From the NCBI GenBank assembly GCA_019117605.1, contig DWZK01000093.1, positions 1 to 44,264 of the forward strand: DNA of 44,264 bases, read 5' to 3'. Source of the DNA: Candidatus Intestinimonas stercoravium. GTDB lineage: Bacteria; Bacillota; Clostridia; Oscillospirales; Oscillospiraceae. A program made the position numbers and the translations under genes. This document shows, in pieces, positions 3,706-35,271 of the stretch. Each line of letters begins with the position of its first letter. The stretch's first letter is position 1. The notes below the pieces were generated by a model. That model saw only the letters and a program-made list of their open reading frames with translations. It made no database searches and was not told where the DNA came from.

Positions 3706-3797
3706 CGCTTTACACCTCGATATACTTAGAGTTATAGTTTCGTCTTCCCCGGTGCGAGAGACCTCCCCCGCCTGCCGGGTACAAACATGGAGAAAGG

Positions 3798-4703: not shown

Positions 4704-4709
4704 CGTTCC

Positions 4710-5366
4710 TCACTTCTCCGTCTTTTTCGACTGGATCATGAATACGCCTCGGGAGACGAACATGCCGATGATGACCACCAGCAGTGTGATCCACACGCTG
4801 GACAGGCCCAGCATGCTCAGGACCGCATAGGTGATGAAGGCGGCGATGATGAGCGGGACGTTGAAGCGCAGGTTCTTCATGGCGTAGTCGATGACGATGG
4901 CGCCGAAGATCGCGGGCGCGATATAGCTGAAGGCGTCCGTCACGCTGGCGGGCAGGATGGAGATCAGGCCCGTGCCCACGATGACCACGAAGGTCAGCCA
5001 GATCACGGTGACGAAGTTGGTCACCGCCGCCGCCATGGTGGAGAGCACGTTGCCCTCAGGCGTGCCCGCTTCCACCTCTGCGGCCTTCTGCGCGGCAGAG
5101 ATGGCCGGCATGCGCAGATCTCCCACATTCCCCGTTGTCCAACTCAGACAGGAGGCTCCGACGCCCAGAGCCGGATAGAAGGTGATCGGCTGCACCACCC
5201 AGCCCACCGCAAAGGACGCGGCCATCATGCCGGCGATGGAGGCGATGTCAGGCGGGCTGGGGATCACGCCATGGAACAGCCAGAGGTACAGGGCGGGGAG
5301 GAAGCTGGCGATGACCGCGCAGCACATGGTGATGAGCCCCAGACGCAGGCACTTTTTGTCAAACAT
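4710..5366 (-). CDS. multi-pass membrane protein, partner of DUF5058-like protein
   Basis: 218 aa with several hydrophobic segments; 18 bp from the next membrane protein gene, same strand. Confidence 0.75.
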   Translation of the reverse strand: MFDKKCLRLGLITMCCAVIASFLPALYLWLFHGVIPSPPDIASIAGMMAASFAVGWVVQPITFYPALGVGASCLSWTTGNVGDLRMPAISAAQKAAEVEAGTPEGNVLSTMAAAVTNFVTVIWLTFVVIVGTGLISILPASVTDAFSYIAPAIFGAIVIDYAMKNLRFNVPLIIAAFITYAVLSMLGLSSVWITLLVVIIGMFVSRGVFMIQSKKTEK

Positions 5367-9928: not shown

Positions 9929-10768
9929 CTATCTATCGCTGTAATCGTAAAACCCCTTGCCGGTCTTTCTGCCCAGATGCCCGGCACGGACCAGCTTCCG
10001 CAGCAGTGGCGCAGGGCGGTATCTCGGGTCGCCTGTCTCCGCATACAGGGTCTCCATGATGGAGAGGATCACATCCAGTCCGGCACTGTCGGCCAACTGG
10101 AGGGGGCCGATCGGGTGATTGAGCCCGAAGCGCATGGCCCTGTCGATGTCTTCCACCGTGGCCACTCCGGTCTCCACCAGTCCGATGGCCTCATTGATCA
10201 GCGGGTCGATGAGCTTGTTGACGATGAATCCCGGGGCTTCTGTGACCTCTACCATCTCTTTTTCCAGGTCCTGGGCCAGACCTTTTATGAGATCGAACGC
10301 CGCCTGCGGCGTATCCGCTCCGCGGACGACCTCCAGCAGCTTCATAGCGTGGACGGGGAAAAAGAAGTGCATCCCTATCAGAGGATGTTTCAGCCCCATC
10401 CCCAGCTCCGTGATCGACAGGGCCGAAGTGTTGGAGGCGAACACCGTCTCTGCCTTGCACATGTCATCCAGCTCGGTCAAGAGCGCCCGCTTCGCGGCGA
10501 TGTCCTCCTTGATCGTCTCGATGATGAGGTCGGCGTCTGCCGCGGCCTCTTTCTCCTCGACATGTATCAGCTCGAGGATCGACCGTCTCTTATCTTCCGT
10601 CAGTTTCCCGCGCTCCGCCCTTCTCGACAGCGAGGCCGCCAAAGCCTCCTTGTGTCTCTGGGCAGAAGCGATACTGCTGGCGTACATCAGGGTGACGTGG
10701 CCATGGGCCGCGAAGAGCTCCGCGATCCCGCTGCCCATAGTGCCTGCCCCAAAAACTGCGATCTTCAT
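9929..10768 (-). CDS. hbd: 3-hydroxyacyl-CoA (3-hydroxybutyryl-CoA) dehydrogenase
   Basis: 279 aa; [53 protein letters not shown]. Confidence 0.92.
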
Positions 10769-13726: not shown

Positions 13727-14272
13727 CTAGAAAGTCAACTGAAAGAGCCCGTGCTGGCTGCAATAGGCATAGGCGCGATGTCCCCGCTTGCACTGGAAAA
13801 GGCAGTGCTCCCATCCCATGCGGCACACCTCTCTGTCGCAAAATACGAAAGCGTCCTCATCAGCCATACAAAAGGTCGCTACCGACCTTCCGTAGCGGGG
13901 GATGTATTTCATCTGCCCACCCTGAAAGGTGTGCAGGAAGATCCACTCGATATGGTGTTCCTCTGTCATGGGGTGGAGCCCGGCCGCCACCTCCACCCGG
14001 ACAGCATTATGCTCCGACCCGCCGAATATGGAGAACCGCATCTCATGTTCTGCCAGACAGCGCTCGTCCCGGCAGGGGATCTCTCTTGTGAGCGCCTTGC
14101 CGCAGCACCGTCCGGGCTCCTCCTCCCCGGCGCTCTGTGCTCCAGCCGCCTGATACCGGACCTGTACCATCCCGCAGGTGCTGCACCGATAAAATCTCGG
14201 CTCCTCTGTCCGGTATGGCGGGCGGCGGCTGACGGTGCACGCCGTGGGATAGGCTCTCCTCTGTTCTTTCAT
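13727..14272 (-). CDS. desulfoferrodoxin/superoxide reductase-like protein (divergent)
   Basis: FYRCSTCG...RCCGKAL (desulforedoxin-like Cys4), LHPMTEEHHIEWI and AYCSQHGLF (SOR Fe-centre motifs); start codon uncertain. Confidence 0.7.
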   Translation of the reverse strand: MKEQRRAYPTACTVSRRPPYRTEEPRFYRCSTCGMVQVRYQAAGAQSAGEEEPGRCCGKALTREIPCRDERCLAEHEMRFSIFGGSEHNAVRVEVAAGLHPMTEEHHIEWIFLHTFQGGQMKYIPRYGRSVATFCMADEDAFVFCDREVCRMGWEHCLFQCKRGHRAYAYCSQHGLFQLTF

Positions 14273-14438: not shown

Positions 14439-15575
14439 TCACGCTTTTGCCAACTGCTTGGCGATGGTCAAGCGTTGGATCTGATTGGTGCCCTCGAAGA
14501 TCTGGAAGATCTTCGAGTCGCGCATCATCTTCTCCACCGGGTATTCTTTGGAATAGCCATAGCCGCCAAAGACCTGCACCGCATCGGTCGTCACCTGGAC
14601 GGCAGAGTCCGAGGCGAAGGTCTTTGCCATCGACGCCTCCTTCGTGGCATTGAGGCCCGCATCCAGCTTTGCCATGCCATAGCGCACCAGCTGTCGGGAC
14701 GCCTCTGTCTTGATGGCCATGTCGGCCAGCAGGACCTGCATGGCCTGGTGTTCGATCAGAGGCTTCCCATAGGAGGTCCGGATCTTGGCGTATGCTACAG
14801 ACTCGTCCAGCGCCGCCTGGCAGATGCCGGTGGCGATGGCCGCGTTGTACAGCCGGCCGGGGTCCAGCGCCCCCATGGCGATGCTCAGGCCCTTGCCCTC
14901 CGGGCCCACCATGGCGCTGATCGGCACGCGGACATCCTCCATGACGACATCGCAGGTGTTGGAGAGGCGCAGCCCCATCTTATTTTCATGCTTGCCCACG
15001 ATCAGCCCCGGGACGTCCCGCTCCAGCATAAAAGCCGTGATGCCCTTGGACCCCAGGCTCCGGTCTCTGGTGGCGCACATCAGGAAGAGGCACGCCTCCT
15101 GCGCATTGGTCACGAACGTCTTCGTCCCGTTCAGGACCACCGTGTCGCCCTCGATCCGATAGGTGGAGCGCAGGGCCGCGGCGTCGGAGCCGCAGTTGGG
15201 CTCCGTGAGCCCCAGTGCGGCAAAGCCGCCGGCGATCACCAGATCGCTCATCCTCTTTTTTTGCTCTTCGGTGCCGGCCCGGAGCACCATCTCGATAGGC
15301 GTGCCCGTGGCCAGCATGGTCAGCGCAAAGCCGGAGTCCGTTCGTCCCATCTCCTCCAACAGGACGCCCATCGTAGTGAAGTCCAGACCGCTCCCGCCGT
15401 ACTCCTCCGGGATATGCAGTGCATGGAAGCCAAGGTCAAAAGCCTTTCGATAGATCTCGACGGGGAACTCTCCGCTCTCGTCGTACTCTGCTATATGCGG
15501 TTTGACTTCTTCCTGCATGAAAGACCTGACAAGGTCCCTGAGCTCCCTTTGGTCTTCGGTAAGTAAAAAATCCAT
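14439..15575 (-). CDS. acyl-CoA dehydrogenase
   Basis: 378 aa; IPEEYGGSGLD, LTEPNCGSDAAALRSTYR, QVFGGYGYSKEYPVEKMMRDSKIFQIFEGTNQIQR. Confidence 0.94.
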   Translation of the reverse strand: MDFLLTEDQRELRDLVRSFMQEEVKPHIAEYDESGEFPVEIYRKAFDLGFHALHIPEEYGGSGLDFTTMGVLLEEMGRTDSGFALTMLATGTPIEMVLRAGTEEQKKRMSDLVIAGGFAALGLTEPNCGSDAAALRSTYRIEGDTVVLNGTKTFVTNAQEACLFLMCATRDRSLGSKGITAFMLERDVPGLIVGKHENKMGLRLSNTCDVVMEDVRVPISAMVGPEGKGLSIAMGALDPGRLYNAAIATGICQAALDESVAYAKIRTSYGKPLIEHQAMQVLLADMAIKTEASRQLVRYGMAKLDAGLNATKEASMAKTFASDSAVQVTTDAVQVFGGYGYSKEYPVEKMMRDSKIFQIFEGTNQIQRLTIAKQLAKA

Positions 15576-15590
15576 CTGTCCTCATCCACC

Positions 15591-16784
15591 TTACGCGTAA
15601 TTGGAGGTCCTCATCTCGCCGTTCTTGGAAAGGACGGAACGGAGCAGGGTCAGGCGCTGGATGGTGGGAGGGCCCTCCTCCAGCCAGAGGGCGCGGCAGT
15701 CGCGATAGAGGCGCTCCACCGGTCCATAGGGGTTATCCTCGAAGTAGCCGATACCGCCGAAGATCTCCAGCGCGGTGTCGGTGCATCTGCGGGACACGCC
15801 GGTAGCGAACAGCTTGGCGATAGAGGAGATCTCATCGATATCCTCGCCGCGGTCGAACTTCTGGGCGCAGTCCCGGCACAGCAGGCGGAGCGCGTGGATC
15901 TCGGCGGCCATGTCGGCGATCATGCCCTGGATGGCCTGCCGCTGGATCAGAGGCTTGCCGAACGTGACGCGGTCATTGGCGCGCTTGATGCACAGCTCCA
16001 GCAGCCGCTGGCAGATGCCCAGCATACAGACGGCCATGGAGCCGCGGGAGATCTGAAGGGAGTTGACCGCCACCGACAGGCCCTCGCCCACAGGACCCAT
16101 CCGGTATTTGTCGTCGATCTCCAGGTCCTCCATATAGACATAGGCATGTCCGACGCCGCGGCAGCCCATCATATGGGGCATGTTCTCCATCCGCAGCCCG
16201 GGCGTGTTGACCGGCACCATGAAGGTCGTGTGCGCTCCGCCGGTCTTCCGCTTGCTGTCGTCCGTGATGCAGACGATGTTGATGGCGTCACACACGTCTG
16301 TGAAGGAGATCAGGGTCTTCTTGCCGTTCAGGACCCACTTGTCCCCCTTCTTGACAGCGGTGGAGCGGATATCCGCGCCTGTGCCGCAGCCCTCCTCGGT
16401 GAGGGCGAAGGCGATGAATTTCTCGCCTTTGGCCATCTGAGGCAGCCACTCATCCTTCAGCTCCTTGGGACCGTGATCGTAGAGGATCTCCCAGCCCATG
16501 CCGTTGGCGATATGGAAAAACATACGGATGGCATTGTTGCCCCGGGCGATCTCCTCCAGGATGGTGAACCACTGCTCTTTGCCCAGCCCCATGCCGCCGT
16601 ACTCTGTGGGCATGGTCATGCGGAACAGGTCGTTCCGCTTCCCGATCTCCCACATCTCGGGCGGGTAGACATTGGTCTTGTCCATCAAGTTGCCCAGAGG
16701 CTCCAGCTCCTCCTCTGTGACCTTTCGGATCTTCATCCTCAGGTCGTAGAGCTCCTGCTCACTGATCCGCTCGAATTTGTGCAT
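15591..16784 (-). CDS. acyl-CoA dehydrogenase family protein (divergent C-terminus)
   Basis: 397 aa; PTEYGGMGLGKEQW, LTEEGCGTGADIRSTAVK, LEIFGGIGYFEDNPYGPVERLYRDCRALWLEEGPPTIQR. Confidence 0.9.
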   Translation of the reverse strand: MHKFERISEQELYDLRMKIRKVTEEELEPLGNLMDKTNVYPPEMWEIGKRNDLFRMTMPTEYGGMGLGKEQWFTILEEIARGNNAIRMFFHIANGMGWEILYDHGPKELKDEWLPQMAKGEKFIAFALTEEGCGTGADIRSTAVKKGDKWVLNGKKTLISFTDVCDAINIVCITDDSKRKTGGAHTTFMVPVNTPGLRMENMPHMMGCRGVGHAYVYMEDLEIDDKYRMGPVGEGLSVAVNSLQISRGSMAVCMLGICQRLLELCIKRANDRVTFGKPLIQRQAIQGMIADMAAEIHALRLLCRDCAQKFDRGEDIDEISSIAKLFATGVSRRCTDTALEIFGGIGYFEDNPYGPVERLYRDCRALWLEEGPPTIQRLTLLRSVLSKNGEMRTSNYA

Positions 16785-16864: not shown

Positions 16865-18067
16865 TCATATGATCCCTTTTTCCTTCAGGGCCGCGTACTC
16901 TTCATCCGTCTTGCCCAGGATCCCCTTATATACCGCCTCATCGCTGGCCCCCAGGTCCTGTGCCGGCACCGGGTCGCGGAAGGGCGTCCTGGACATCTTG
17001 AAGGGCGTCATCGTGACCGTGTACCGCCCGATCTTGGGGTGCTCCAGCTCCACCAGTTCTCCGCGCTGTCTGAAATGGGGCTCCTTGAAGCAGTCTTCCA
17101 TCGTGTTCACCGGCGCGCAGGGGATGCGCATCGCCTGGAACTGGGCGATCACCTCGTCCCTGGGCAGCTTGGAGGTGTAATCGTTCACCAGCTTATCCAG
17201 GAACGCGCGGTTCTGCCGCCGGGCCATATTGGTGGCGCAGCGGGGGTCGTCCTTCAGCTCGGGGTGCCCGATGGCATCCAGGATGAGCCAGGCGAATTTG
17301 TCCGAGGAGATGTTCATGTAGAAGGTATCCTTGCCCTCCAGGGTATCGAAGCACCCGGTCATGCCGATCGAAGGGTGTCCGTTGCCGCAGCGGGGCATAT
17401 TCTCTCCGGTGAAGGAATAATAAGTGGCCGCATTCTCTGTGAAGTTCAGGCAGGCGTCCACCATCGCGACATCGATGTGCTGCCCCTTGCCGGAGATGCT
17501 CCGCTCATACAGCGCGGCGAGCACACCGATGGCACACATATACCCGGAGATCTCGTCCACGGCTCCCGGGCCGACCTTGATGCCCGGCTCCCCTTCCCGC
17601 CCGTTCATGGCGATGAGCCCGCCGAATGCCTGGGCGATCCCGTCAAAGGCGGGATAATTGACATATGGGCTGTCCTTCTGCCCATAGCCGGAGATGGAGC
17701 CATAGATGATGCTGGGGTTATACTTGATCACGCTCTCATAATCGAGCTGATATTTCTTCATCACTCCCGCAGCATTGTTCTCCACCAACACATCGCACTC
17801 TTTGACCAGCTCGTAGAACAGCTCCCGCCCCTCGGGCTTGGTATAGTCCAGCGTGATGCTGCGCTTGTTGCGGTTGAATGCGTGGTACCAGCCAGACTCT
17901 CCGTTCTTGAACGGCGCGAAGGTCCTGCCGTCATCACCAGTCCCGATACGCTCGATCTTCCAAACGTCCGCTCCCAAGTCGCTCAAGATCTGACAGGTCG
18001 TCGGCCCGGCCAGGAACCGGGTCACATCGAGAACGCGGAGCCCCTTCAAGCAGGTGTTTTCAAACAT
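16865..18067 (-). CDS. CaiB/BaiF family (family III) CoA-transferase
   Basis: 400 aa; GLRVLDVTRFLAGPTTCQILSDLGADVWKIERIGTGDDGR; catalytic Asp in GPGAVDEISGYM. Confidence 0.93.
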   Translation of the reverse strand: MFENTCLKGLRVLDVTRFLAGPTTCQILSDLGADVWKIERIGTGDDGRTFAPFKNGESGWYHAFNRNKRSITLDYTKPEGRELFYELVKECDVLVENNAAGVMKKYQLDYESVIKYNPSIIYGSISGYGQKDSPYVNYPAFDGIAQAFGGLIAMNGREGEPGIKVGPGAVDEISGYMCAIGVLAALYERSISGKGQHIDVAMVDACLNFTENAATYYSFTGENMPRCGNGHPSIGMTGCFDTLEGKDTFYMNISSDKFAWLILDAIGHPELKDDPRCATNMARRQNRAFLDKLVNDYTSKLPRDEVIAQFQAMRIPCAPVNTMEDCFKEPHFRQRGELVELEHPKIGRYTVTMTPFKMSRTPFRDPVPAQDLGASDEAVYKGILGKTDEEYAALKEKGII

Positions 18068-19242: not shown

Positions 19243-19902
19243 TTAAAACCCGACCCACTGCGTGATCTGCGCCACGTCCTCACGCGTGCTGACCACCTGA
19301 TTGGCTGGGAATCCCGGATCGGGGTAGCCCAATGCGATGCCGACGGCCGGCCGCCTGTCCTCCGGCAGGGAGAGCACCTCCCGGATGCCGCGCTGCAGCA
19401 TGACCGCCTGGCTCTGGACACAGGTCCCCAGGCCATATGCCATCGCGGCATAGCACAGGTTCTGTGTCAGACACCCGATGTCCAGCCGGGACACCAACGG
19501 GTCGACCGTCGTATCCTCCAGGATGAGGACCAATACCGGCGCGTCAAAGAAGCGGAAGCCGCGCTCCAGCCACCATGTGCGGCGCGCTTTATCTTCCCGT
19601 TGGATGTCCATGGCTTTGAAGAGCTGTTTCGCGATGGCGACCCGCCTCGTCCGATAGGCTCCGCCGAATTCCGGCTCCGGCACATCGAATGGCACGCCGG
19701 CCCTGAGGTCCTCGATGTTTCGTTCCCGGATCGCATCCAGCGGCGCACCGGTCACCACGGTGAGCTCCCAGGGCTGCATATTCAGTGCCGACACCGCCCG
19801 TGTCGCCAGCTCCAGGACGCCGTGTATCGTTTCTTGGGACACCGGCTCTTGCAGATAGCCCCGTATGGACCGTCTCCCCAGGATCGCTTCCTTCAGTTCC
19901 AT
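19243..19902 (-). CDS. nitroreductase family protein
   Basis: 219 aa; MELKEAILGRRSIRGYLQEPVSQETIHGVLELATRAVSALNMQPWELTVVTG. Confidence 0.9.
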   Translation of the reverse strand: MELKEAILGRRSIRGYLQEPVSQETIHGVLELATRAVSALNMQPWELTVVTGAPLDAIRERNIEDLRAGVPFDVPEPEFGGAYRTRRVAIAKQLFKAMDIQREDKARRTWWLERGFRFFDAPVLVLILEDTTVDPLVSRLDIGCLTQNLCYAAMAYGLGTCVQSQAVMLQRGIREVLSLPEDRRPAVGIALGYPDPGFPANQVVSTREDVAQITQWVGF

Positions 19903-19932: not shown

Positions 19933-20892
19933 TCACCGCTCTTCTTCGTCCGCCCCGCCGCCGAAGGGCTCCCCCAAACGGATCTGCCCTCCGAGCAGGG
20001 CCGCCGCCTCCTGCGGGGTCAGTTCCCCAGCAGATACCCTGTCCGCCAGCCGGGCGACTTGCCCCTTCACCGCTTCCTTCCAGCGTGAGAGCGCCCCGCT
20101 GAAGATCTCATCTTCGATCCGGGCCCGCTCTCTGGCTCCCCGCGTCCCCTCCGACCTGGCATACGCCGACTCGATCGCAGACAGGAGCTCCTCTATCCCC
20201 CTCCCCTTCGAAGCGGCGGTCCGCACCAGCATGGGGCGGCGCTCTGCCGGAAGCAGGTCGAGCATCGCCGACAGCTGGAGATGGAGGCTCCCGGCTCCCG
20301 GCCTGTCCATCTTGTTCAAAACGAATATGTCCGCGATCTCCTGTATGCCGGCCTTGGCCAGCTGGATGTCATCCCCGTTTCCCGGCGCCAGGACCACAGC
20401 AGTCACATCCGTAAAATTCCGGATTTCGGTCTCGCCTTGTCCCGCTCCAAGGCTCTCCAGGAGGATCACGTCAAAGCCGAACGCCTTATACAGGTAGAGC
20501 GCATCCTTGGCCCCCTGAGAGATGCCGCCCAGCTCTCCACGGCTGGCGAAGGAGCGGATGAAAACGCCCGGGTCACCGCTGTGCCGTCCCATGCGGAGAC
20601 GGTCCCCCAGCAGCGCGCCTCCGGTATAGGGGGAGCTGGGGTCCACTGCCAGGACCCCTACAGTGGCCCCCTCTTCCCGGTAGGCGGAGATGAGGCAGTC
20701 CACCAGGGTGGATTTTCCCGCTCCGCCCGCCCCAGTGAGCCCGACGACCATGCAGTCCTTCCCCGCGTCCCGGTAGGCGGCCCTCATCACCAGCGGCTTC
20801 TCCTGCCCATCGTTCTCCACGATGGTGATCGCCCGTGCGAGCGCTCTCCAGTCATGCGCCTGGAACCGCTCCAGAAGGTCCCCGGCCTTCAT
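19933..20892 (-). CDS. meaB: MeaB/ArgK-type GTPase, B12 mutase chaperone
   Basis: Start reset to MKAGDLLERFQAHDWRALARAITIVEN; VVGLTGAGGAGKSTLVDCLI, AVDPSSPYTGGALLGDRLRM, FVLNKMDRPGA. Confidence 0.9.
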   Translation of the reverse strand: MKAGDLLERFQAHDWRALARAITIVENDGQEKPLVMRAAYRDAGKDCMVVGLTGAGGAGKSTLVDCLISAYREEGATVGVLAVDPSSPYTGGALLGDRLRMGRHSGDPGVFIRSFASRGELGGISQGAKDALYLYKAFGFDVILLESLGAGQGETEIRNFTDVTAVVLAPGNGDDIQLAKAGIQEIADIFVLNKMDRPGAGSLHLQLSAMLDLLPAERRPMLVRTAASKGRGIEELLSAIESAYARSEGTRGARERARIEDEIFSGALSRWKEAVKGQVARLADRVSAGELTPQEAAALLGGQIRLGEPFGGGADEEER

Positions 20893-20932
20893 CTCCGCGC
20901 ACCTCCTCCCTGGAGCCGCAGGAGCGCCCGCG

Positions 20933-21334
20933 CTACGATGGCCGCTGTCCCACGAGCTCATAGACTTTTTCCACGCATGCGCCGACAGGGCTCCCTGTCC
21001 CAAAGCAGGCCTTGACTCCCATCTCCAGCAGCGCCTCCCGGTCGGCCCGGGTGAGCAGGCCGCCGCAAAAAACGGGGATATCCGCCTCCATGCGGCGCAG
21101 CTCCTCCAATATCTTCCGGCAGATGATCGGCAGGCTCCCAGTCAGGTCGGACACGCCGATCACATCCACATCCTCCGCCACTGCCGTACGGGCGATGGCC
21201 GCCTCCGACTGGTATCTGCCGGTATAGAGGACCTCCATCCCGGCGTCGCGAAATGCGGTCATCATGGTCAAAGCGCCCCGCTCATGGATATCACAGCCCG
21301 CCTTGGCCACCAAAACTCTGATCTTCCTCGGCAT
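20933..21334 (-). CDS. cobalamin-binding (small) subunit of acyl-CoA mutase
   Basis: 133 aa; VLVAKAGCDIHERGA (DxHxxG), VIGVSDLTGS (SxL), VFCGG. Confidence 0.92.
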   Translation of the reverse strand: MPRKIRVLVAKAGCDIHERGALTMMTAFRDAGMEVLYTGRYQSEAAIARTAVAEDVDVIGVSDLTGSLPIICRKILEELRRMEADIPVFCGGLLTRADREALLEMGVKACFGTGSPVGACVEKVYELVGQRPS

Positions 21335-21379: not shown

Positions 21380-23071
21380 CTATGCCGGCAGGTCCCGCAG
21401 GGCCTGCTCCACATGGTCCGGCGTAGGTATCATGTCCACAGGGTCATATCCCAGTCCATAGGCCAGCCGCACGATACCGCACACTTCTCCGATGGTCAGG
21501 CCGGCTTTTCCGCCGTCTATGACCGCTCTGGAGATATTGGCCCCGGTCTTCGTATCCTGATAGAGCCTTCGGATGGCCCGGGCTACCGCTTCCTGATCTC
21601 GGGACGCCCGGAATGCTTTCACCTCGGCCACGCGCTCCTGGCGCACCTGTTCCGGCGGGACGGTATAGGCGCAGTCGGCGATCGCCTGATTCACAGGCCC
21701 ATCCTCTCCCTGGAAAGCGTTGAGGCCAACGATCAGGCGTTTCCCCTCTTCCCGCTCGCGCTGGACCCGCAGGCGGTCCTGCTCCATGACCCCGCGGAGC
21801 CATCCGCTCTCCAGACAGGCATAGATCCCCCCGTTCTCCTCCATCTCCCTCAGGTATGCGTTGGCCTCCTCTTCCAGCTTGTCCGTCAGCCATTCCAGGT
21901 AATACGAGCCCCCCAGCGGGTCCGCAGTAAGGGGCACATTGGCCTCATGGGCCAGGATGTGCTGCATATCCAAGGTGAACATCCGCGCCTCGTAAGAGGG
22001 CAGGCCCACTGCCTCGTCGATGCTGCACGCATCGATGGAGTTCACTCCGCCCAGGACGCCGGCCAGGGTCTGGATGGTCACGCGGGCCGCATTGTTCAGC
22101 GGTTTCTGCGCCTGGAGCGACAGCCCGGAGGTCCGTATCCCGATCTTCAGCATCATGGTGGACTTCTTCTGGGCTCCGAAGCGCTCCCTGGCCACTTTGG
22201 CCCACATGCGCCGTGCCGCCCGGAACTTGGCGATGCTCTCGAAAAAGTCGGACTCCGCGTCCATCGCCACCACCATGGGCCCGAACTCATCGATCGTATG
22301 ACCGCGCTTGCAGAAGTCTTCTATGATCGCCGTACAAACAGCGATCACCTCGCCCAGTTCGTGGATCGCGTTCATCCCTGCCTGGCACGGATCGATCCCA
22401 TTGGGGACCACGGGCCTCCACTTCGGCGTGTGTTCCAGACAGTACTCGATGTGGTCCATCAGCACCCTGCGCTCGATCTCAGTGGGCCAGGACGGGTCCC
22501 CATAGACGAGCTTGCTCCGGACCGGATCGGCGATGTCGGTCCCCAGGAGCTTGCTGATGTCTCCGCCTCTGTTCTCGATCATAGCCACGAGCAGCCCGTG
22601 GAAATAGATGGCGTCCAGCACGTTCATGAAGCCGCCTTCGTACACGGTGTTCTCCAGCGGCAGCCCGTCCAGCATGGTCTCATAGGTGTTGATGGCATAC
22701 GAGGCGATGCCGCCGCAGAACATCGCGGAAAGCGCCAGCGGATGGTCCGGATCCAGCCCGTTCTGTGTGGGCAAGTCGCAGGTCAGGCGCAGGTCGTTCA
22801 TCCCGTTCTCGATATAGGATCTGAACGCCGCGTTGGTGGACTCCGGCGTATCATAGCTGACCAGGAACGCTTTCAGCCACAGGCGGTCACGGTACATCTT
22901 GGGGTAGATCCCGCGGGTGAAGGGATAGCTGCCGGGGTCGGAGATGTCCTCTTCATAACGGCTCTTGACATCCTCCGGCGTATAGACCGGCTCGACATAG
23001 ATGCCGCTCTGCGTCTCCTCTCTGACCAGCCCGCCCTCATCTCGGTCCAGCTTCACCACGTTTTCACTCAT
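21380..23071 (-). CDS. B12-dependent acyl-CoA mutase large subunit, divergent, substrate unknown
   Basis: 563 aa; CDLPTQNGLDPDHPLA, FRAARRMWAKVARERFGAQ, RTSGLSLQAQKPLNNAARVTIQTLAGVLGG, PLTADPLGGSYYLEWLTD. Confidence 0.9.
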   Translation of the reverse strand: MSENVVKLDRDEGGLVREETQSGIYVEPVYTPEDVKSRYEEDISDPGSYPFTRGIYPKMYRDRLWLKAFLVSYDTPESTNAAFRSYIENGMNDLRLTCDLPTQNGLDPDHPLALSAMFCGGIASYAINTYETMLDGLPLENTVYEGGFMNVLDAIYFHGLLVAMIENRGGDISKLLGTDIADPVRSKLVYGDPSWPTEIERRVLMDHIEYCLEHTPKWRPVVPNGIDPCQAGMNAIHELGEVIAVCTAIIEDFCKRGHTIDEFGPMVVAMDAESDFFESIAKFRAARRMWAKVARERFGAQKKSTMMLKIGIRTSGLSLQAQKPLNNAARVTIQTLAGVLGGVNSIDACSIDEAVGLPSYEARMFTLDMQHILAHEANVPLTADPLGGSYYLEWLTDKLEEEANAYLREMEENGGIYACLESGWLRGVMEQDRLRVQREREEGKRLIVGLNAFQGEDGPVNQAIADCAYTVPPEQVRQERVAEVKAFRASRDQEAVARAIRRLYQDTKTGANISRAVIDGGKAGLTIGEVCGIVRLAYGLGYDPVDMIPTPDHVEQALRDLPA

Positions 23072-23103: not shown

Positions 23104-23889
23104 TCAGCGTCCGATGAATCCTTTGGGCGGACGCTTCTCCAGATATGCTGCATAAGCCTCTTTGGTGTCTTTCGTGGCATAGAGGTGGGCAAAAAGAGCG
23201 CTCTCCATCTGTAAAGCGCGCTGAAGATCGCACTGCATCCCGTCATAGATGGAGGTCTTGATATATCGGATCGCCATAGGCGCCTTAGAGGCGATCTTCT
23301 CCGCCAAGGCGAGCGCCTCATCCATCAGTCGGTCCGCCGGGACCACCCGGTCCACGAGCCCCATCTCGAGCGCCTGGCGGGCCGTGTATCTGTCCCCGGT
23401 ATACATGATCTCCCGGGCCTTCGACATCCCCACGATGCGCGGAAGGCGCTGTGTCCCGCCCCACCCGGGATATACGCCCAGATCTATCTCCGGAGAGCCC
23501 AGCTTCGCGTCGTCCGCAGCGATGCGGATATCACACGCGATCGCGAACTCCACCCCTCCTCCCAGGCAATAGCCGTTGATGGCCGCGATGACCGGGGCTT
23601 TGAAGCGTTCGATCTTCTCCAGCAGTTCTCCGCCCGTGCGGACGAATCCATAGGCGGCGATGACGTCTTTTTCCGCCTCTTCATGGATGTCCCCACCGGC
23701 ACAGAACGCTTTTCCTCCGTGTCCGGTCAGGATGACGCAGCGGATGTCCGGATCTTCATCCATGGCCGCAAATACCTTCTTCATCTCTATCACTGTCTCC
23801 GTGTTCATCGCGTTGAGCACTTCCGGACGGTGGAAAGAAATGATGCCTACCCTGCCCCGCTTTTCATAGAGCAGCCCTCGCAGTTCCAT
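23104..23889 (-). CDS. enoyl-CoA hydratase/isomerase
   Basis: Start reset to MELRGLLYEKRGRVGIISFHRPEVLNAMNTE; GHGGKAFCAGGDIHEEAE, INGYCLGGGVEFAIACDIRIA; GGGAGG-type RBS. Confidence 0.93.
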   Translation of the reverse strand: MELRGLLYEKRGRVGIISFHRPEVLNAMNTETVIEMKKVFAAMDEDPDIRCVILTGHGGKAFCAGGDIHEEAEKDVIAAYGFVRTGGELLEKIERFKAPVIAAINGYCLGGGVEFAIACDIRIAADDAKLGSPEIDLGVYPGWGGTQRLPRIVGMSKAREIMYTGDRYTARQALEMGLVDRVVPADRLMDEALALAEKIASKAPMAIRYIKTSIYDGMQCDLQRALQMESALFAHLYATKDTKEAYAAYLEKRPPKGFIGR

Positions 23890-23959
23890 ATCGAGCCCTC
23901 CCACTCGATCGCGCATCCGGAGGCCGCTTTCCCGGCCTCCGGATGCACCGATCCGCCTG

Positions 23960-25096
23960 TTACTCCTTCTCCAGTTCCCGCGCGATCACGATCCGCTGGA
24001 TCTGGTTCGTCCCTTCAAAGATCTGGAAGATCTTCGAGTCTCTCATCATCTTTTCCACGGGGTACTCCTTGCTGTAGCCGTAACCGCCGAATACCTGGAC
24101 CGCATTCGTCGCCACCTGGACGGCCGCATCGCCACAGAACGCCTTTGCCATCGACGCCTCTTTGCTGGCCTTCTTCCCCGCGTCCAGCACCTGCATCCCA
24201 TTGTACACCAGCAGCTTGGCCGCCTCCGTCTGGATGGCCATATCGGCCAGCATCATCTGGATCGCCTGGTGCCGGATGATCGGCACGCCGAAGGAGGTGC
24301 GCTGCTTGGCGTAGTCCACCGCGGCATCCAATGCCGCGCGGCAGATGCCCGTGGCGATGGCGGCATTGTTCAGCCGTCCGGCATCCAAGCCGGCCAGCGC
24401 GATGTGCATGCCCTTCCCCTCCTCGCCCAGGAGGCAGTCGGCGGGGACCCGCACCTCATCCAGCGCGACATCCGTCGTGTTGGAGAGCCTCAGTCCCATC
24501 TTGTCCTCGTGTTTGCCCACGGTGAGCCCGGGCGTGCCGCGCTCTACGATGAAGGCGGAGATGCCCTTCGCGCCCAGAGCGCGGTCTTTCGTGGCAAAGA
24601 CGATGTAAACGCTGGCCTCCTGTCCGTTGGTCACGAAACATTTGGAGCCGTTGAGCACATAACTATCTCCGTCCCTGCGGTAAGTCGTGCGCATAGCCAC
24701 CGAATCGGAGCCGTTCCCGGGCTCCGTCAGGCAGAAGGATCCAAAGCCGCCCGGCACGATGATATCGCATATCCGGCGCTTCTGCTCTTCGTTCCCGCCG
24801 ATCAGCACACACTTCAGAGCCAGAGACGTGCACAGGATGGTGATAGCGAATCCGGGGTCGGTATACCCCATCTCCTCCAGGAGGAAGCCCATCGTGGTGT
24901 GGTCCAGACCGCTTCCCCCGTATTCCTCCGGGATGTCCAGACAGTGGAACCCCAGCTCGAATGCTTTTTTATAGATATCTACCGGAAATTCTCCGCTCGC
25001 GTCCAGCTCCCGTAATCTGGGCTTGACTTCCCCTTCCATGAAAGCCCCGATCAGTCGCTTCAGCTCGGCCTGGTCCTCTGTCAAAACGATCCCCAT
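23960..25096 (-). CDS. acyl-CoA dehydrogenase
   Basis: Start reset to MGIVLTEDQAELKRLIGAFM; FGGYGYSKEYPVEKMMRDSKIFQIFEGTNQIQR; closely similar to the 14439..15575 product. Confidence 0.94.
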   Translation of the reverse strand: MGIVLTEDQAELKRLIGAFMEGEVKPRLRELDASGEFPVDIYKKAFELGFHCLDIPEEYGGSGLDHTTMGFLLEEMGYTDPGFAITILCTSLALKCVLIGGNEEQKRRICDIIVPGGFGSFCLTEPGNGSDSVAMRTTYRRDGDSYVLNGSKCFVTNGQEASVYIVFATKDRALGAKGISAFIVERGTPGLTVGKHEDKMGLRLSNTTDVALDEVRVPADCLLGEEGKGMHIALAGLDAGRLNNAAIATGICRAALDAAVDYAKQRTSFGVPIIRHQAIQMMLADMAIQTEAAKLLVYNGMQVLDAGKKASKEASMAKAFCGDAAVQVATNAVQVFGGYGYSKEYPVEKMMRDSKIFQIFEGTNQIQRIVIARELEKE

Positions 25097-25211
25097 ATAT
25101 GCTCGTCTCCTTTCTAATCTGGCGATGCCGCCGAATTTTCTGCATTTTCTTCCTGCACTATTAGTATAAACGTCTATTTCGTGTTCATGGAAGCGACAAA
25201 CACGGCCCCGC

Positions 25212-25225
25212 GTCCATAATTGGAC
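25212..25225. promoter_or_regulatory. candidate operator GTCCA-TAAT-TGGAC inside a larger hairpin (25196..25241)
   Basis: Perfect inverted repeat nested between 13-bp arms ACAAACACGGCCC/GGGCCGTGTTTGT. Confidence 0.4.
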
Positions 25226-25346
25226 ACAGGGCCGTGTTTGTTCATCCCACCGTCTCCCGGGCGGGCGCTGCGGGCCTGGAGGCATATGTACGACGCATAA
25301 AAGGCCGCCGTGGGAGGAAACTATTGGCAGTCGGGAGGGTGATGGG

Positions 25347-25610
25347 ATGGAGATCAACATACGGGATGACGCGAAGATCGTGGAGATCTGGCTGGACAGG
25401 CAGGAAAAGGCGGATGTGGCGCTTCGGAGCCGGCTGGAGCCCCTCTACCAGGCGTACCACGCCCGAAGATATCTGGTGGCGGTGTTCTTGTCCGGTACAG
25501 CGCCGCTGTACGAGGAGACGCGGGATCTGCTGCTCTACGGCCGCAGACGGCAGGCGGAGCTCGAGGTCCGGCAGGAGAAGGGGGGCGGAGCGGCCTGCCC
25601 GCCTCCCTGA
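25347..25610 (+). CDS. small hypothetical protein preceding the recombinase
   Basis: 87 aa MEINIRDDAKIVEIWLDRQEKADVALRSRLEPLYQAYHARRYLVAVFLSG; RBS GGGAGGGTGATGGG upstream. Confidence 0.65.
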   Translation: MEINIRDDAKIVEIWLDRQEKADVALRSRLEPLYQAYHARRYLVAVFLSGTAPLYEETRDLLLYGRRRQAELEVRQEKGGGAACPPP

Positions 25611-25772: not shown

Positions 25773-27989
25773 ATGTGGGAAAGGACGGTGGGACACTTGA
25801 TCGAGAGATACCATATCGCGGGCTACTGCCGTATCTCGGTGGACGAAGAGCTGGACCGGGACAATGTGTCCATCGAGAACCAGAGGTCGATCATCGAGGA
25901 CTTCGTGAAGCGGAAGTTCCCAGACAGTACCCTCACCTTTTATGAAGACCGGGACCGCTCCGGCTACACCTTCGAGCAGCGGGAGGGCTATCAGGCGATG
26001 CGGAAGGGGCTCATGTCCCATCAGTACGAGATCCTGGTCGTCAAAGATTTCTCCCGTTTCTCCCGGCGCAACAGCCGGGGCCTGGTGGAGCTGGAGGATC
26101 TGCGCGACGCCGGGGCGCGGATCGTCTCCATCGGGGACGGCATCGACTTCCCCAATGACGACGACTGGCTGAAGATCCAGTTCCAGTTCCTCATCAACGA
26201 GATGCCTGTCACCGACACCAGCAAGAAGGTGAAGTCGGTGATCCAGCGGCGGCAGGCCGACGGCAGGTGGATCTGCGCCGCCCCCTACGGCTATCTCGTG
26301 AACAAGCGCCAGGAGTTCGAGGTCGTCCCCACCGAGGCGGAGGTAGTGCGGGAGATCTTCCGCCTGTACATCGACGGCTGGGGCTATAAGAAGATCGCCA
26401 ATCACCTCACCGACCGGGGGATCCCGACCCCCCGCATGGCGGAGAAGGAGAGGAAGGAGGCCGCCGGAGAGGGCTATAGACGGGCCGCCAAGCCGGCGTG
26501 GGCGATCGTCACCGTCCAGGGCATCCTGGACAATGACTTCTACATCGGCACCCTGCGGCAGGGCAAGTACACACGGAAGAAGATCAACGGCAAGGACGTC
26601 CGCCGGGACGCGCTGGAGCATGTGGTCATCGAGCACCACCACCAGCCCATCATCGACTACCGCACCTTCGCCACTGTCCGGGCGCTCCGGGAGAGCCGCT
26701 CCACCGGCCACTACCGGGGAAAGAAGAAAAACGACAACCCCTGGTCCGGTTTCCTGGAGTGCGGGGACTGCGGGGCCCCCATGTTCGCCATGAGCCGCTC
26801 TGACCTGCGCGCCGCCTATACCTGCGGCACCTATCACCGGCGCGGCCGGAAGGGCTGCACCAGCCACCATATCCGGGTGGACAGGCTGGACGAGCTGATG
26901 AAGGCCTATATCCGAAAGGTGAAAACGGGTTCCAGGGAGATGCTGGAGCGCCTCAACAGGGACCTCGCCCGGGAGCGGGAGGACGTGGGCGAGGCCGAGC
27001 AGAGCGCCGCGAACCTGGAGGCGGTGCTCGCCCAGCTCCAGGAGGAGCTGAAAGCCACCAAGCGCCAGCGCATCCGGGATCTGGTGAAGCATCCGGAACA
27101 GGAGGCCCTCCTGGAGGAGACCTATGACGAGCTGGAGAGCGACTTGGCCCGCCGCATCGGGGGCATCCAGGACCAGATCGCCATGGCGGTGGACAAGCGC
27201 AATACCATCATCCGGGTGGACCGGGCCGCCAAGACCGCCATGGAGGTGTTCGACGATATCCTGGCCAAGGACCATCTGGAGCGGAACGACCTTCAGCTCA
27301 TCGTCCAAAAGATCAGGGTCTATGAAGACCACCTGGAGGTACAGCTCAAGGCCGACGTGGACGGCCTGCTCCGCTGCGGGACGCTCCCGGAGGAGGTCCC
27401 GGAGGCCGCAGCCGCGCTGGCCCGGAGGGACACCATAAATTTTAAGGCGGGCATGGGACATATCTCGCCCCTCGTCGTCGTCCAGACGTCCAACAGACGT
27501 CCGGACAAGGTGTTCCATGCCAATGTTATCAGTGACGGCGACCCTCTGGAGATCTATACGGACAAGGATGGAGGCGTCATCTTCAAAAAATACTCCCTCA
27601 TGGGCGGACTGGGGGATTTCGCCGCCCAGATCTGTGAGGCCCTCTACAAGACCGCCAGTCAGATCGCGGTCATCACCGACCGGGATACCTGTATCGCCGT
27701 ATCGGGCACGCCCAGGCGCGAGATCGGCGACCACCGCATCTCTCCCGAGCTGGAGCGGCTGATGGAGGAGCGGCAGATCTACCAGCGCCGGGAGCAGGAC
27801 CCCTTCCTCCCCGTCTGTGAGGACACCAGCAAGTATACCCTGGAGGTGGCCGCCCCTATCCTGGCCGAAGGGGACGTGCTGGGCTCCGTCATCTTCGCTT
27901 CCGTCGGCGGCGGACCCACCACCAGCGATACCGAGTATAAGCTGGTCCAGGCAGTCTCCGGCTTCCTGGGGCGGCACATGGAGTCCTGA
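25773..27989 (+). CDS. serine recombinase fused in frame to SpoVT-like C-terminal (GAF-type) domain
   Basis: 738 aa; GYCRISVDEELDRDNVSIENQ, LVVKDFSRFSRRN, zinc-ribbon CGDCGAPMF; C-terminus DGDPLEIYTDKDGGVIFKKYSLMGGLGDFAAQICEALYKTASQIAVITDRDTCIAVSG...EYKLVQAVSGFLGRHMES resembles SpoVT. Confidence 0.88.
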   Translation: MWERTVGHLIERYHIAGYCRISVDEELDRDNVSIENQRSIIEDFVKRKFPDSTLTFYEDRDRSGYTFEQREGYQAMRKGLMSHQYEILVVKDFSRFSRRNSRGLVELEDLRDAGARIVSIGDGIDFPNDDDWLKIQFQFLINEMPVTDTSKKVKSVIQRRQADGRWICAAPYGYLVNKRQEFEVVPTEAEVVREIFRLYIDGWGYKKIANHLTDRGIPTPRMAEKERKEAAGEGYRRAAKPAWAIVTVQGILDNDFYIGTLRQGKYTRKKINGKDVRRDALEHVVIEHHHQPIIDYRTFATVRALRESRSTGHYRGKKKNDNPWSGFLECGDCGAPMFAMSRSDLRAAYTCGTYHRRGRKGCTSHHIRVDRLDELMKAYIRKVKTGSREMLERLNRDLAREREDVGEAEQSAANLEAVLAQLQEELKATKRQRIRDLVKHPEQEALLEETYDELESDLARRIGGIQDQIAMAVDKRNTIIRVDRAAKTAMEVFDDILAKDHLERNDLQLIVQKIRVYEDHLEVQLKADVDGLLRCGTLPEEVPEAAAALARRDTINFKAGMGHISPLVVVQTSNRRPDKVFHANVISDGDPLEIYTDKDGGVIFKKYSLMGGLGDFAAQICEALYKTASQIAVITDRDTCIAVSGTPRREIGDHRISPELERLMEERQIYQRREQDPFLPVCEDTSKYTLEVAAPILAEGDVLGSVIFASVGGGPTTSDTEYKLVQAVSGFLGRHMES

Positions 27990-31272: not shown

Positions 31273-34200
31273 TCAGATCCTGCTGTAGTTGAGCAGCATC
31301 TGGGCCACCTCGGCGCGGGTGGCGGCCCCGCCGGGGTTGAGCTGGCCGGCCTCGTTGCCGGACAGGATGCCGTTGGACACGGCCCAGCCCATGGCCTCAA
31401 CGGCCCAGGAGGACACGCTGGAGGCGTCGGGGTAGGCGCTCAGGTCCGCCCCGGCGGCGCCGCCGCCGGCGTACCGGTAGAGCATCACGGCCAGCTGCTC
31501 ACGGGTGATGTTCCCCTCGGGATCGAACAGGCCGTTCCCGATACCGGTGACGATGCCCTGCTCCGCGGCCCAGGTCACCGCCTCGGTGTACCACTGGCCG
31601 GCGGCCACGTCGGTGAAGGCGTTGGCGCCGGTGGGGGCGGGCTGGCCCTCCATCCGCCACAGCACGGTGGCCAGCATGGCGCGGCTCATGGGCACGCTGG
31701 GGCCGAAGGTAGTCTCGGAGGTGCCGTTGAAGTAGCCCTGGCCGGTCACATACTCGATGGCCTCAGAGGCCCAGTGGCCGGCGGGCACGTCGGTGAAGGT
31801 GGTGGGAGAGAGCGGAGTCTCGCCGTCATCGATATCGGTGTCGGGGGCCTCGGGCTCAGTGGGCTCGTCGGGCGTCTCACTGCTGCCGGCGGAGCTGCCG
31901 CTGCCGCCGGAGACCACGGTGGAGGCGTTCTCCGCGTCGTGGTCATCGCTGGTGGCGGGCTCATCGGGCACATCGGGCTCGTCGGGCTCATCCACGCCGC
32001 CCAGAGACACGTCCACGGTCTCCTGGAGCACCAGGTCGTCCGTGTCGGAGGAGCTGCCCACATAGATGGTGCGCTCTCCCTCGGCCACGGTCCACTTGCC
32101 CTTGGTGCCGTCGGGGAACTCGATCAGCTCGTCATCGGAGAGGGTGCTGTTCCAGTAGGAGAGGGAGCGCTGGTCCACATGGAAGGTGACCTCCCGGCTC
32201 TCGCCGGGCTGCAGGTCCTTGACCCGCTCATAGCCGGCCAGCTGGAGCTCCGCGCTCTGGATGCCCTCGGGCAGGGCGCTCATATCGGCCTGGCCCAGGT
32301 AGAGCTGGACCACTTCGTCGCCGGCCACATCGCCGGTGTTGGTGACGGTGAAGGTCACGTCGTAGCCCACCTCATCGCCATCCGTGGCATTCTCGGTGAC
32401 GCGCAGGCCGGAGTAGCCGAAGGTGGTGTAGGAGAGGCCGTAGCCGAAGTCATAGAGGGGCTCGATATCCATGGCGTCGTACCAGCGGTAGCCGGTCAGG
32501 ATGCCCTCATCATAGTTGGTGGTGTTGGGACTGCCGCCCATGCCGGGGAAACCGCCGCCGGGGAAACCGCCGCCGGGGAAACCGCCACCGGGGAAACCGC
32601 CACCGGGGAAGTCCCCGCCGGGGAAGTCCCCGCCAGGGAAGTCTCCGCCAGGGAAGCCGCCTCCAGGGCCGCCGGAAGTCCCTTCGTCTCCCTCGTCCTC
32701 ATCAGTCTCGTCGGGCACTTCATACTTGTCGAAGGCCTCGTCGGAATAGGTCAGGAGGGTGTCCTCATCGTGGGCGGGGATGGCGTAGGCCAGCTTGCCG
32801 CCGGGGTTCACCTCGCCGGTGAGCAGGTTCGCGGTGGCCTCGCCGCCGCCCTGGCCGGGGAAATACATCTCCAGCAGGCCGTCCACCTGATCGATCCACT
32901 GGTCCATCACCACGGCGGTGGAGTTGTTCAGCACCACCACCACCTGGTGGCCGTTCTCATGGGCGGCCTCGGCCACGTCCAGGATCAGCTGCTCCTGGTC
33001 CTCGCTCAGGCGGAGGGTGGTCTCCTCCCGGGTGTCGGCGGGATCGGTGGCCTGCCGGTAGGCGAAGACGATGGAGACGTCCTGGGCAGCGGCCACGTCC
33101 AGAGCCTGCTGGTACTGCGCTTCCCGCATGGAGGGGGTGATCCAGGCCAGCCGGACCTGGAGGTCCTTCTCCGCGTAGCCGGCCACTGCGGCCACCACGA
33201 CCTTGTAGTACTTGCCCGCCTCCAGCTCTACGGTGGCGGAGGAGCCGATGTTCATGCCGGTGGCGGTGGGGATGACCTGGCTGTCCGGCCACTGGGCGCC
33301 CTGCCGGCTGGAGGTGCCGCCGAAGGTGACGGTGGTGGGCTCCTCCACGGTCTCGTCGATGCTGTCCAGGCCGTCAGTCATGATGACGCCCTGCATCTGG
33401 CCGCCGATGCCCTCCAGGAGCATGGTGTAGGTGCCGGTCTCGGGGGCCTGGATGTAAGTGGTCCAGGTGTAGGCCACAGGGTCATCCTCGCCCTGATAGG
33501 GGAAGGCGGTGGCGGTGCCCTGGTCCGCGTTCTCGCTCTTGTAGGTGCGGTTGGGCTCGCCATCGATGGTGCCGGTGGTGAAGTCGATATCCGCATCGAT
33601 CTGGGCGAACTCGCCGATCTCGTGGCCGTTCATCTGGGTCTCGCTGACGCCGCCCACCGTGATCTGCTGGCCCTGCTGGTCCTGGCTCTCGCCGCTGCTG
33701 CCGGCAGTGCCATAGGTGCGGGTGACGCCGTTGATGACCACGGAGGCACCGGTCTCCTCCTCGGTGGGCTCGTCGGCAAGGACCTGGACGGTCTCGGCCT
33801 CGTCGGCGGGTGCGTCGGGGGCCTCGGTCTCGCCGGCGGTCTCCTGGACGGTCTCGGTCTCGCCGGCGGTCTCCTGGACGGTCTCGGCCTCGCCGGCGGT
33901 CTCCTCGACGGTCTCGGTCTCGCCGGCGGTCTCCTCGGGGGCCTCGGTCTCGCCGGCGGTCTCCTCGGGGGCCTCGGTCTCGCCGGCGGTCTCCTGGACG
34001 GTCTCGGCCTCGCCGGCGGTCTCCTCGATGGCCTCGGTCTCGCCGGCGGTCTCCTCGACGGTCTCAGCCGCATCGGCGGGCACGCCGGGGGTCTCGGTCT
34101 CGCCGGCGTCGGGATCGGCGGTGAACAGATATTCAGCGGGGATGGGCTCGCCCACCATATCGATGCCCACGGCGCCGTCCACGCGGTCCTCACCCAGCAG

Positions 34201-35271
34201 GTCCACCATGGCCGCATAGGGGCTGGTCATCTCGCTGATCGTGCCGTAGGAGCGCTCGCCGCCCACGCCGGAGATCAGATCCATGCCGCCCACGCCGATG
34301 ATGCCCACAGTGCGGTCATCGCCGTCCACAGCGACGGGGAGCACATCCTCCTCGTTCTTCAGAAGGACGCCGCCCTCCTCCGCGATCTTCTGGGAGCGGA
34401 GGGTGTTCTCAGCTACGATCTCGTCCAGCTCGTCCAGACGCCCCTCCAGCTGGATGACCTCCGGGGGATCGGGGTCCTCCTTGGCCAGGCCGTCGGCGCC
34501 GATCTCCACCCAGTAGAGGTAGCCGGCCCGGCCCAGGGCGGTGAGCACATTGCCCGCGGCCTCGTCCACCATGGCGTCCATCTCCGCCTGGGTGTAGGTG
34601 CCGTCGTCCACCAGGGCCTGGGCGCTCTCCTGGGAGTTGTTGCTCAGGCTGGGCATCTCCACATCGGTGCCGTCATCCAGGGTGAAGCCGCTGTTGCCGC
34701 CCCAGTCGGTGACGGTGAAGCCCACGAAGTTCCACATCTGGCGGAGCACGGTCTCCTGCAGGTAGGAGTGGGCGGAGGCCGCCGTGCCGTTGATCTTGTT
34801 GTAAGAGGACATCATGCCCAGCAGGCCGCCCTCGGTCACCGCCGCCTCGAAGCCGGGCAGATGCAGCTCGTGCATGGCCTGCTCGGAGATCTCGATGTTG
34901 GTGCCGGTACCGGGCGTGGCGTTCTGGGAGAACACGGCGAAGTGCTTGCCCACGGCGATGACGCCCTGGTCCTGCACGCCCTGGGTCTCGCCCACGGCCA
35001 TGTCGGAGAGCAGATAGGGGTCCTCGCCGAACTGGTCCTTGGCCCGGCCGAACTGGGGCATACGGGTGATGTCGAACTGGGTGCCCAGCTGGACGTTGCC
35101 GCCGATGGCCTGGTTCTCGGAGCCGTGGATCACGCCGTACTCATAGGCCATCTCCGGGTCCCAGGTGGCGGCCACCATCTGCTCCTGGGGCGGGTTGGTG
35201 GTGTCCTCCAGATAGTACACGCCGGCGGGGCCGTCGTACATCCGGGACCGGGGCACGCCCAGGCGGGGCAC
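31273..35271 (-). CDS. glycoside hydrolase family 3 with C-terminal SLH domains (main part of a frameshifted gene)
   Basis: GH3 N-domain (MPRLGVPRSRMYDGPAGVYYLED, GFTVTDWGGNSGFTLDDGTDVEMPS), FN3-like domain, SLH repeats (TFTDVPAGHWASEAIEYV..., AFTDVAAGQWYTEAVTWAAEQGIVTGIGNGLFDPEGNITREQLAVMLYRYA). Confidence 0.9.
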   Translation of the reverse strand: MPRLGVPRSRMYDGPAGVYYLEDTTNPPQEQMVAATWDPEMAYEYGVIHGSENQAIGGNVQLGTQFDITRMPQFGRAKDQFGEDPYLLSDMAVGETQGVQDQGVIAVGKHFAVFSQNATPGTGTNIEISEQAMHELHLPGFEAAVTEGGLLGMMSSYNKINGTAASAHSYLQETVLRQMWNFVGFTVTDWGGNSGFTLDDGTDVEMPSLSNNSQESAQALVDDGTYTQAEMDAMVDEAAGNVLTALGRAGYLYWVEIGADGLAKEDPDPPEVIQLEGRLDELDEIVAENTLRSQKIAEEGGVLLKNEEDVLPVAVDGDDRTVGIIGVGGMDLISGVGGERSYGTISEMTSPYAAMVDLLGEDRVDGAVGIDMVGEPIPAEYLFTADPDAGETETPGVPADAAETVEETAGETEAIEETAGEAETVQETAGETEAPEETAGETEAPEETAGETETVEETAGEAETVQETAGETETVQETAGETEAPDAPADEAETVQVLADEPTEEETGASVVINGVTRTYGTAGSSGESQDQQGQQITVGGVSETQMNGHEIGEFAQIDADIDFTTGTIDGEPNRTYKSENADQGTATAFPYQGEDDPVAYTWTTYIQAPETGTYTMLLEGIGGQMQGVIMTDGLDSIDETVEEPTTVTFGGTSSRQGAQWPDSQVIPTATGMNIGSSATVELEAGKYYKVVVAAVAGYAEKDLQVRLAWITPSMREAQYQQALDVAAAQDVSIVFAYRQATDPADTREETTLRLSEDQEQLILDVAEAAHENGHQVVVVLNNSTAVVMDQWIDQVDGLLEMYFPGQGGGEATANLLTGEVNPGGKLAYAIPAHDEDTLLTYSDEAFDKYEVPDETDEDEGDEGTSGGPGGGFPGGDFPGGDFPGGDFPGGGFPGGGFPGGGFPGGGFPGMGGSPNTTNYDEGILTGYRWYDAMDIEPLYDFGYGLSYTTFGYSGLRVTENATDGDEVGYDVTFTVTNTGDVAGDEVVQLYLGQADMSALPEGIQSAELQLAGYERVKDLQPGESREVTFHVDQRSLSYWNSTLSDDELIEFPDGTKGKWTVAEGERTIYVGSSSDTDDLVLQETVDVSLGGVDEPDEPDVPDEPATSDDHDAENASTVVSGGSGSSAGSSETPDEPTEPEAPDTDIDDGETPLSPTTFTDVPAGHWASEAIEYVTGQGYFNGTSETTFGPSVPMSRAMLATVLWRMEGQPAPTGANAFTDVAAGQWYTEAVTWAAEQGIVTGIGNGLFDPEGNITREQLAVMLYRYAGGGAAGADLSAYPDASSVSSWAVEAMGWAVSNGILSGNEAGQLNPGGAATRAEVAQMLLNYSRI
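32541..32670 (-). repeat. 15-bp coding repeat encoding (FPGG[D/G])n
   Basis: PGGGFPGGDFPGGDFPGGDFPGGDFPGGGFPGGGFPGGGFPGGGFPGMGG. Confidence 0.9.
33811..34080 (-). repeat. 30-bp tandem coding repeat, 9 units, encoding (EETAGETE[A/T][P/V])n
   Basis: Exact 30-bp register in the sequence lines, e.g. ctcctggacggtctcggtctcgccggcggt. Confidence 0.93.

Follow-up and report, generated by a model that had tools for sequence, protein, structure and literature searches.

Does a B12-dependent acyl-CoA mutase whose active site departs from that of methylmalonyl-CoA mutase (MCM) still catalyse a rearrangement, and if so, on which acyl-CoA? This question was raised by a gene at positions 21380..23071 (minus strand) of the 44,264-nucleotide contig DWZK01000093.1 of Candidatus Intestinimonas stercoravium, called here the window. 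The original prediction, made by reading the sequence, had proposed a rewired active site and a probable new substrate.

The mutase gene and its operon

The gene encodes a 563-aa large subunit which is a genuine, very divergent member of the B12-dependent acyl-CoA mutase superfamily. It matched the Pfam MM_CoA_mutase family (PF01642) over its full length (8.8e-134, 447 bits, for a curated cut-off of 22.1) and scored 369 bits on TIGR00641 (cut-off 304), in agreement with the core fold, and the position, that had been predicted. The MCM beta model TIGR00642 gave 135 bits, below its cut-off of 617. Its best match in the PDB was 4r3u, a 2-hydroxyisobutyryl-CoA mutase (HCM; 3.5e-77). No second PF01642 gene, and thus no catalytic alpha partner, was found in the same genome, which is 82% complete.

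The large subunit, the B12 subunit and MeaB each have a gene of their own within one operon. The split into large and small subunits had been noticed to resemble that of isobutyryl-CoA and 2-hydroxyisobutyryl-CoA mutases, and 4r3u shares it. The cobalamin-binding small subunit (20933..21334, minus strand, 133 aa; TIGR00640 103.6 bits, cut-off 57.5; PF02310) reads KAGCDIHERG in translation, so that the KxGxDxHxxG motif, with its DxHxxG core, is intact, as had been noticed. It is followed by a MeaB-type G-protein chaperone (19933..21003, minus strand; TIGR00750 272 bits, cut-off 241; PF03308), whose true start is probably the ATG near 20892. Upstream of the mutase, in the same operon and with gaps of 33-44 bp, lie an enoyl-CoA hydratase of the crotonase family (23104..23916, minus strand; PF00378, 3e-76), in which both catalytic Glu motifs, GGGVEFA and GSPEIDLG, were recognised by eye, and an acyl-CoA dehydrogenase (23960..25360, minus strand; PF00441/PF02770/PF02771). 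The latter gave an AcrC-like match of 385.7 bits, under the equivalog cut-off, and since its domain begins near residue 89 its start is likely at about 25096.

A nitroreductase-family flavoprotein gene (19243..19902, minus strand; weak NCBIfam nitroreductase/BluB-like matches) stands 30 bp downstream of MeaB. Beyond it, also on the minus strand, are a family III, CaiB-type CoA-transferase (16865..18067; NCBIfam CaiB-family matches) and two more acyl-CoA dehydrogenases, at 15591..16784 (profile match) and 14439..15575 (NCBIfam; 66% identical to the product of the 23960 gene). Every ORF of the cluster is intact, and no epimerase or carboxylase was found among its annotated genes. A PduO/EutT-family adenosyltransferase gene (PF01923) is present in the same genome. 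Taken as a whole, positions 1-25360 form a dense CoA-metabolism cluster, with three CaiB-type CoA-transferases and three acyl-CoA dehydrogenases in all, two MaoC-like proteins, a 3-hydroxyacyl-CoA dehydrogenase, NfnAB/GltD-like oxidoreductases, GntP and DUF5058 transporters and an M20 peptidase. A gene at 13727-14272 (minus strand), adjoining the CoA-transferase and dehydrogenase genes, encodes 181 residues that include a degenerate desulfoferrodoxin-like domain.

Residues of the substrate pocket

The large subunit was aligned with the Propionibacterium shermanii MCM (whose numbering is used throughout), human MCM, HCM (4r3u) and about 90 homologues. At sites 89, 207 and 244 it carries Leu, Tyr and Asp (Y89L, R207Y, H244D). 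The predicted changes at 89 and 244 were thus borne out, and a proper alignment did not restore Tyr, Arg or His at any of the three positions. The loss of Arg207 also stood, but not its register: the hand alignment of the segment KLVYGDPSWP was one position off, and the aligned residue is Tyr. His244 is invariant in the background homologues (90/90), so that its replacement by Asp is not chance noise.

A rewiring limited to these three sites is real but understates the extent of the change. The alignment further revealed the replacements T85L, R87A, S114R, S162Y, T166F, Q197I, N236R, F287A, H328G, Q330R, Q361N and N366C, the loss of H364 and the absence of R283. Among 78 columns conserved at 95% or more, 24 are lost and 54 kept, to be compared with 44-45 kept in MCM beta subunits, and the lost ones appear to be mostly substrate- or CoA-facing. 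Indeed, T85, R87, S114, Q197, N236, R283, F287, H328, Q330 and Q361 are what we take to be CoA, substrate or adenosine contacts in the MCM crystal structures. Retained are Y75, M78, R82 and T195, at the mouth of the CoA channel, as well as G333 and E370. The protein therefore does not carry the combination of His244 and CoA-channel residues of the catalytic members of the superfamily. Tyr89, His244, Lys604, Asp608 and His610 have been listed as active-site residues of MCM (PMC3205055); the three that belong to the B12 domain are kept here, and Tyr89 and His244 are gone.

As had been proposed, the pocket matches no familiar type: L/Y/D equals none of those compared, namely MCM (Y/R/H), HCM (I/Q/H), F/Q/H, the Xanthobacter Py2 type (L/N/H) and a type found in two Pseudomonadota mutases. 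On this alignment, the defining residues of each characterised subtype tested are missing. No mutase with Asp at 244 was found in the literature searched. The two Pseudomonadota proteins have Ala243, Val330 and Cys or Ala at 366 and keep His244; this other pocket type is possibly that of ethylmalonyl-CoA mutase. An AlphaFold2 model built from a 2-sequence alignment reached a pLDDT of 36.8, too low to be of use for the geometry of the pocket or for a fold search.

Relatives and the element in spoVT

Close relatives of the large subunit were found neither in about 1880 genomes, where the best identity was 38-39%, to ordinary mutases, nor in a scan of GTDB contigs, which returned only 34% relatives. 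A phage search gave distant matches only, and a plasmid search a single Asp244 partner, from Paraburkholderia sp. PGU19. A scaffold from human faeces, submitted under the name 'Bacteriophage sp.' (MT838864.1, positions 3797-5269), encodes a 25% identical large subunit in which Tyr89, Arg207 and His244 are all kept.

In a 45-row IQ-TREE mixture tree, the large subunit and the Paraburkholderia protein were joined (support 99/97), and the pair stood beside a Xanthobacter Py2/Sphingobium/Roseovarius clade (99/95), away from the MCM and HCM types. We take this clade, which includes Xaut_5043 of Xanthobacter autotrophicus Py2, to be that of the characterised isovaleryl-/pivalyl-CoA mutase PCM. When either of the two long branches was dropped, the other still joined the Py2 clade; for the large subunit taken without the Paraburkholderia protein, it was the nearest clade with support 98/98. 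By AU test, placing the large subunit with MCM was rejected (p 0.0009), as was placing it with the HCM type (p 0.011) or with the Py2 clade if the Paraburkholderia protein is kept out (p 0.015). Grouping it with MCM beta subunits was not rejected (p 0.077). As terminal branches measure 2.5-3.6 changes per site, the placement is tentative. Neither residues nor grouping thus fit MCM (Tyr89/Arg207/His244) or the 2-hydroxyisobutyryl-/isobutyryl-CoA mutases (Ile or Phe89, Gln207, His244), and because both groupings were rejected methylmalonyl-CoA is very unlikely to be the substrate. From the Py2-type signature (Leu89/Asn207/Gln243/His244), only Leu89 is shared.

Identities private to the large subunit and one other group were also scored. 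They first seemed to single out the Paraburkholderia protein (28 versus at most 19), but this advantage vanished once beta subunits were added and the Py2 clade was taken out of the background: counts became about equal, at 23 for Paraburkholderia, 22-26 for the Py2 clade and up to 22 for beta subunits, and they are accordingly given no weight as a sign of kinship. Given these counts, and the overlap of the lost sites with those lost in beta, a shift of substrate and a loss of CoA binding cannot be told apart from sequence alone.

The rarity of the mutase, and its absence from relatives, fit its location on a mobile element. At 25773..27989 (plus strand), the gene of a large serine recombinase (PF00239, PF07508, PF13408) runs on in frame into the 3' part of spoVT (PF15714), at the right end of the element, on its attR side. 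The attachment junction (27520..27544, plus strand) consists of the arm CCAATGTTATCAGTGAC followed by the core GGCGACCC. Its mate arm GTCACTGACTACATTGG was found on another contig of the same genome, C28, adjoining codons 1-33 of spoVT (10092-10190), which end exactly at GDP. Both junctions carry the core, and the two arms match each other as inverted repeats in 15 of their 17 positions. ORFs that read by eye as ybeY, era and recO neighbour the 5' part of spoVT on C28, and PhoH- and YqfD-like ORFs, also identified by eye, follow spoVT in the window. Most relatives in the genus have an intact spoVT, starting MKATGIVRRIDDLGRVVIPKEIRRTMRIREGDPLEI; one shows a recombinase fusion with the same junction, and in another a truncated spoVT immediately follows a recombinase gene. 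The GC content is 0.60 in positions 1-27520 of the window and 0.66 to the right. From the split spoVT, the matching core and arms and this GC step, we conclude that the mutase cluster is cargo of an integrative element. The element measures at least about 37 kb (the first 27.5 kb of the window and positions 1-10.1 kb of C28, the gap between contigs being unclosed), and is reminiscent of skin-type elements in that it interrupts a sporulation gene. To its right, a large ORF at 31273-35271 (minus strand) has, by eye, fibronectin/GH3-like parts, a G-rich repeat and SLH-like C-terminal domains.

Competing readings and comparison with known systems

The reading we favour, to which we give an even chance, is that the large subunit is the substrate-binding part of an active AdoCbl carbon-skeleton mutase of the alpha2beta2 type, its pocket rebuilt for another substrate and its gene acquired as cargo. 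MeaB would load AdoCbl on the small subunit, and binding of the substrate would trigger Co-C homolysis, proceeding as usual, with the lower-ligand His of the B12 subunit and Glu370 kept. The molecule rearranged would be a branched acyl-CoA devoid of the free carboxylate bound by Arg207 in MCM, Asp244 and the basic Arg330 taking over the polar contacts of His244, Gln197 and Gln330. The product may then pass to the enzymes of the two upstream genes, the acyl-CoA dehydrogenase and the enoyl-CoA hydratase, for beta-oxidation or reduction, and the cluster itself would have arrived with the element in spoVT. A new substrate is plausible, presumably other than methylmalonyl-, isobutyryl- or 2-hydroxyisobutyryl-CoA and most likely an acyl-CoA that is branched, uncharged or hydroxylated, although the sequence points to no single compound. 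The "probable new substrate" of the original prediction is strengthened by a pocket equal to no compared type and by the rejected MCM and HCM groupings, and weakened by the beta-like replacements and by the fact that catalysis itself is not established. Less likely than not is the broader proposal that the Clostridia element and the Paraburkholderia plasmid both carry members of a new class of catalytic AdoCbl acyl-CoA mutases, with Asp244 paired with a basic residue 330 and with a branched substrate that no known mutase handles.

Activity in one form or another, all active readings taken together, appears rather probable in view of the intact B12 subunit and MeaB, the missing alpha partner, the 54 invariant columns kept against 44-45 in beta, and an enoyl-CoA hydratase and acyl-CoA dehydrogenase that look intact. 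The large subunit might nevertheless be catalytically dead or unable to bind CoA, like MutA, the beta subunit of heterodimeric MCM, and serve as a structural or regulatory partner, or be a decaying gene of the mobile element. We hold this for a minority view, though a serious one: CoA and substrate contacts are mostly changed, R87, S114, S162, Q197, N236, H244, R283, F287, H328, Q330 and H364 are lost as in beta, N236R and Q330R are identical to beta, the bulky S114R, S162Y and T166F would fill the barrel, and neither the AU test nor the private identities separate the protein from beta subunits. Yet it is encoded alone with its B12 subunit and chaperone in a cluster of intact ORFs, the alpha-type model outscores the beta model by far (369 versus 135 bits), and strand 4 retains an alpha-like xGxDxxxAG layout. 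The loss of R87, S114, T166, N236 and R283 while the B12 machinery is retained could also be accounted for by a substrate other than a normal CoA thioester, or by a different AdoCbl radical reaction. We consider this improbable, as Y75, M78, R82 and T195 are kept at the CoA mouth and the neighbours are all CoA enzymes; we know of no precedent in the family.

Membership of the Py2 clade as a pivalyl-/isovaleryl-CoA-type mutase is less probable still. It would explain Leu89 and the nearest well-defined clade of the trees, but the Py2 proteins have Gln197, Asn207, Asn236, Gln243, His244, Arg283 and Gln330, none of which occurs in the large subunit, and a clade without the Paraburkholderia protein was rejected. 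As for an ordinary MCM of propionate metabolism, the family name and the set of subunits speak for it; with Y89, R207 and H244 all lost, neither epimerase nor carboxylase annotated in the cluster, and the MCM clade rejected, we find it scarcely credible.

Known changes of specificity among mutases involve one to three residues around positions 89, 116 and 207, and His244 is kept by each catalytic acyl-CoA mutase compared. Should the favoured reading hold, with Asp244 and a rebuilt CoA channel, the radical rearrangement would not require His244, and gut anaerobes would seem to carry out a carbon-skeleton rearrangement that has so far escaped notice. An inactive protein would be unusual as well: a pseudo-mutase that stands alone and retains a B12 subunit and a chaperone of its own.

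Among known systems, MCM alpha (1req) has the same fold but a full pocket. The non-catalytic MCM beta subunit (1e1c_B) has the same fold too and shares N236R and the ADP motif in strand 3, Q330R being common to Clostridia beta chains; it differs in being part of an alpha-beta heterodimer and in matching a different model. IaaGH, the benzylmalonyl-/phenylsuccinyl-CoA mutase of anaerobic auxin degradation (PMC8360864), is comparable by its gene set alone (mutase, acyl-CoA dehydrogenase and CoA-transferase), and only as an analogy; its substrate is a dicarboxylate. HCM (4r3u), alike in its split organisation, differs by Ile89/Gln207/His244 and Asp116 and keeps nearly all CoA contacts. Proteins of the Py2 clade likewise have separate large, small and MeaB genes, Leu89 and no Arg207, but they keep His244 and most CoA-contact residues, and their genes neighbour those of an AMP ligase and an ABC transporter.

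The closest counterpart is the uncharacterised mutase of plasmid p3 of Paraburkholderia sp. PGU19 (WP_180736718.1), although the two proteins are only 35% identical. They have in common Asp244, a hydrophobic residue at 197, a basic one at 330, Cys366 (which is not diagnostic by itself, as one of the Pseudomonadota mutases also has it), the loss of S114, N236, R283, F287 and H328, and a short C-terminal YDP extension. The Paraburkholderia protein has Met197, Ala236, Ser283 and His330 and, unlike the large subunit, keeps T85, R87 and Y243. Its genes are ordered acyl-CoA dehydrogenase (two copies), enoyl-CoA hydratase, mutase, B12 subunit and MeaB, the last four in the same order as here; with flanking dehydrogenase and hydratase only 25-32% identical between the clusters, this order may be convergent. 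There, the setting is one of aerobic catabolism, with genes for a Rieske oxygenase, DUF1302/DUF1329 and MMPL proteins and a cobalamin adenosyltransferase in the same cluster, a gene set which suggests a hydrophobic substrate, perhaps terpenoid or steroid-like.
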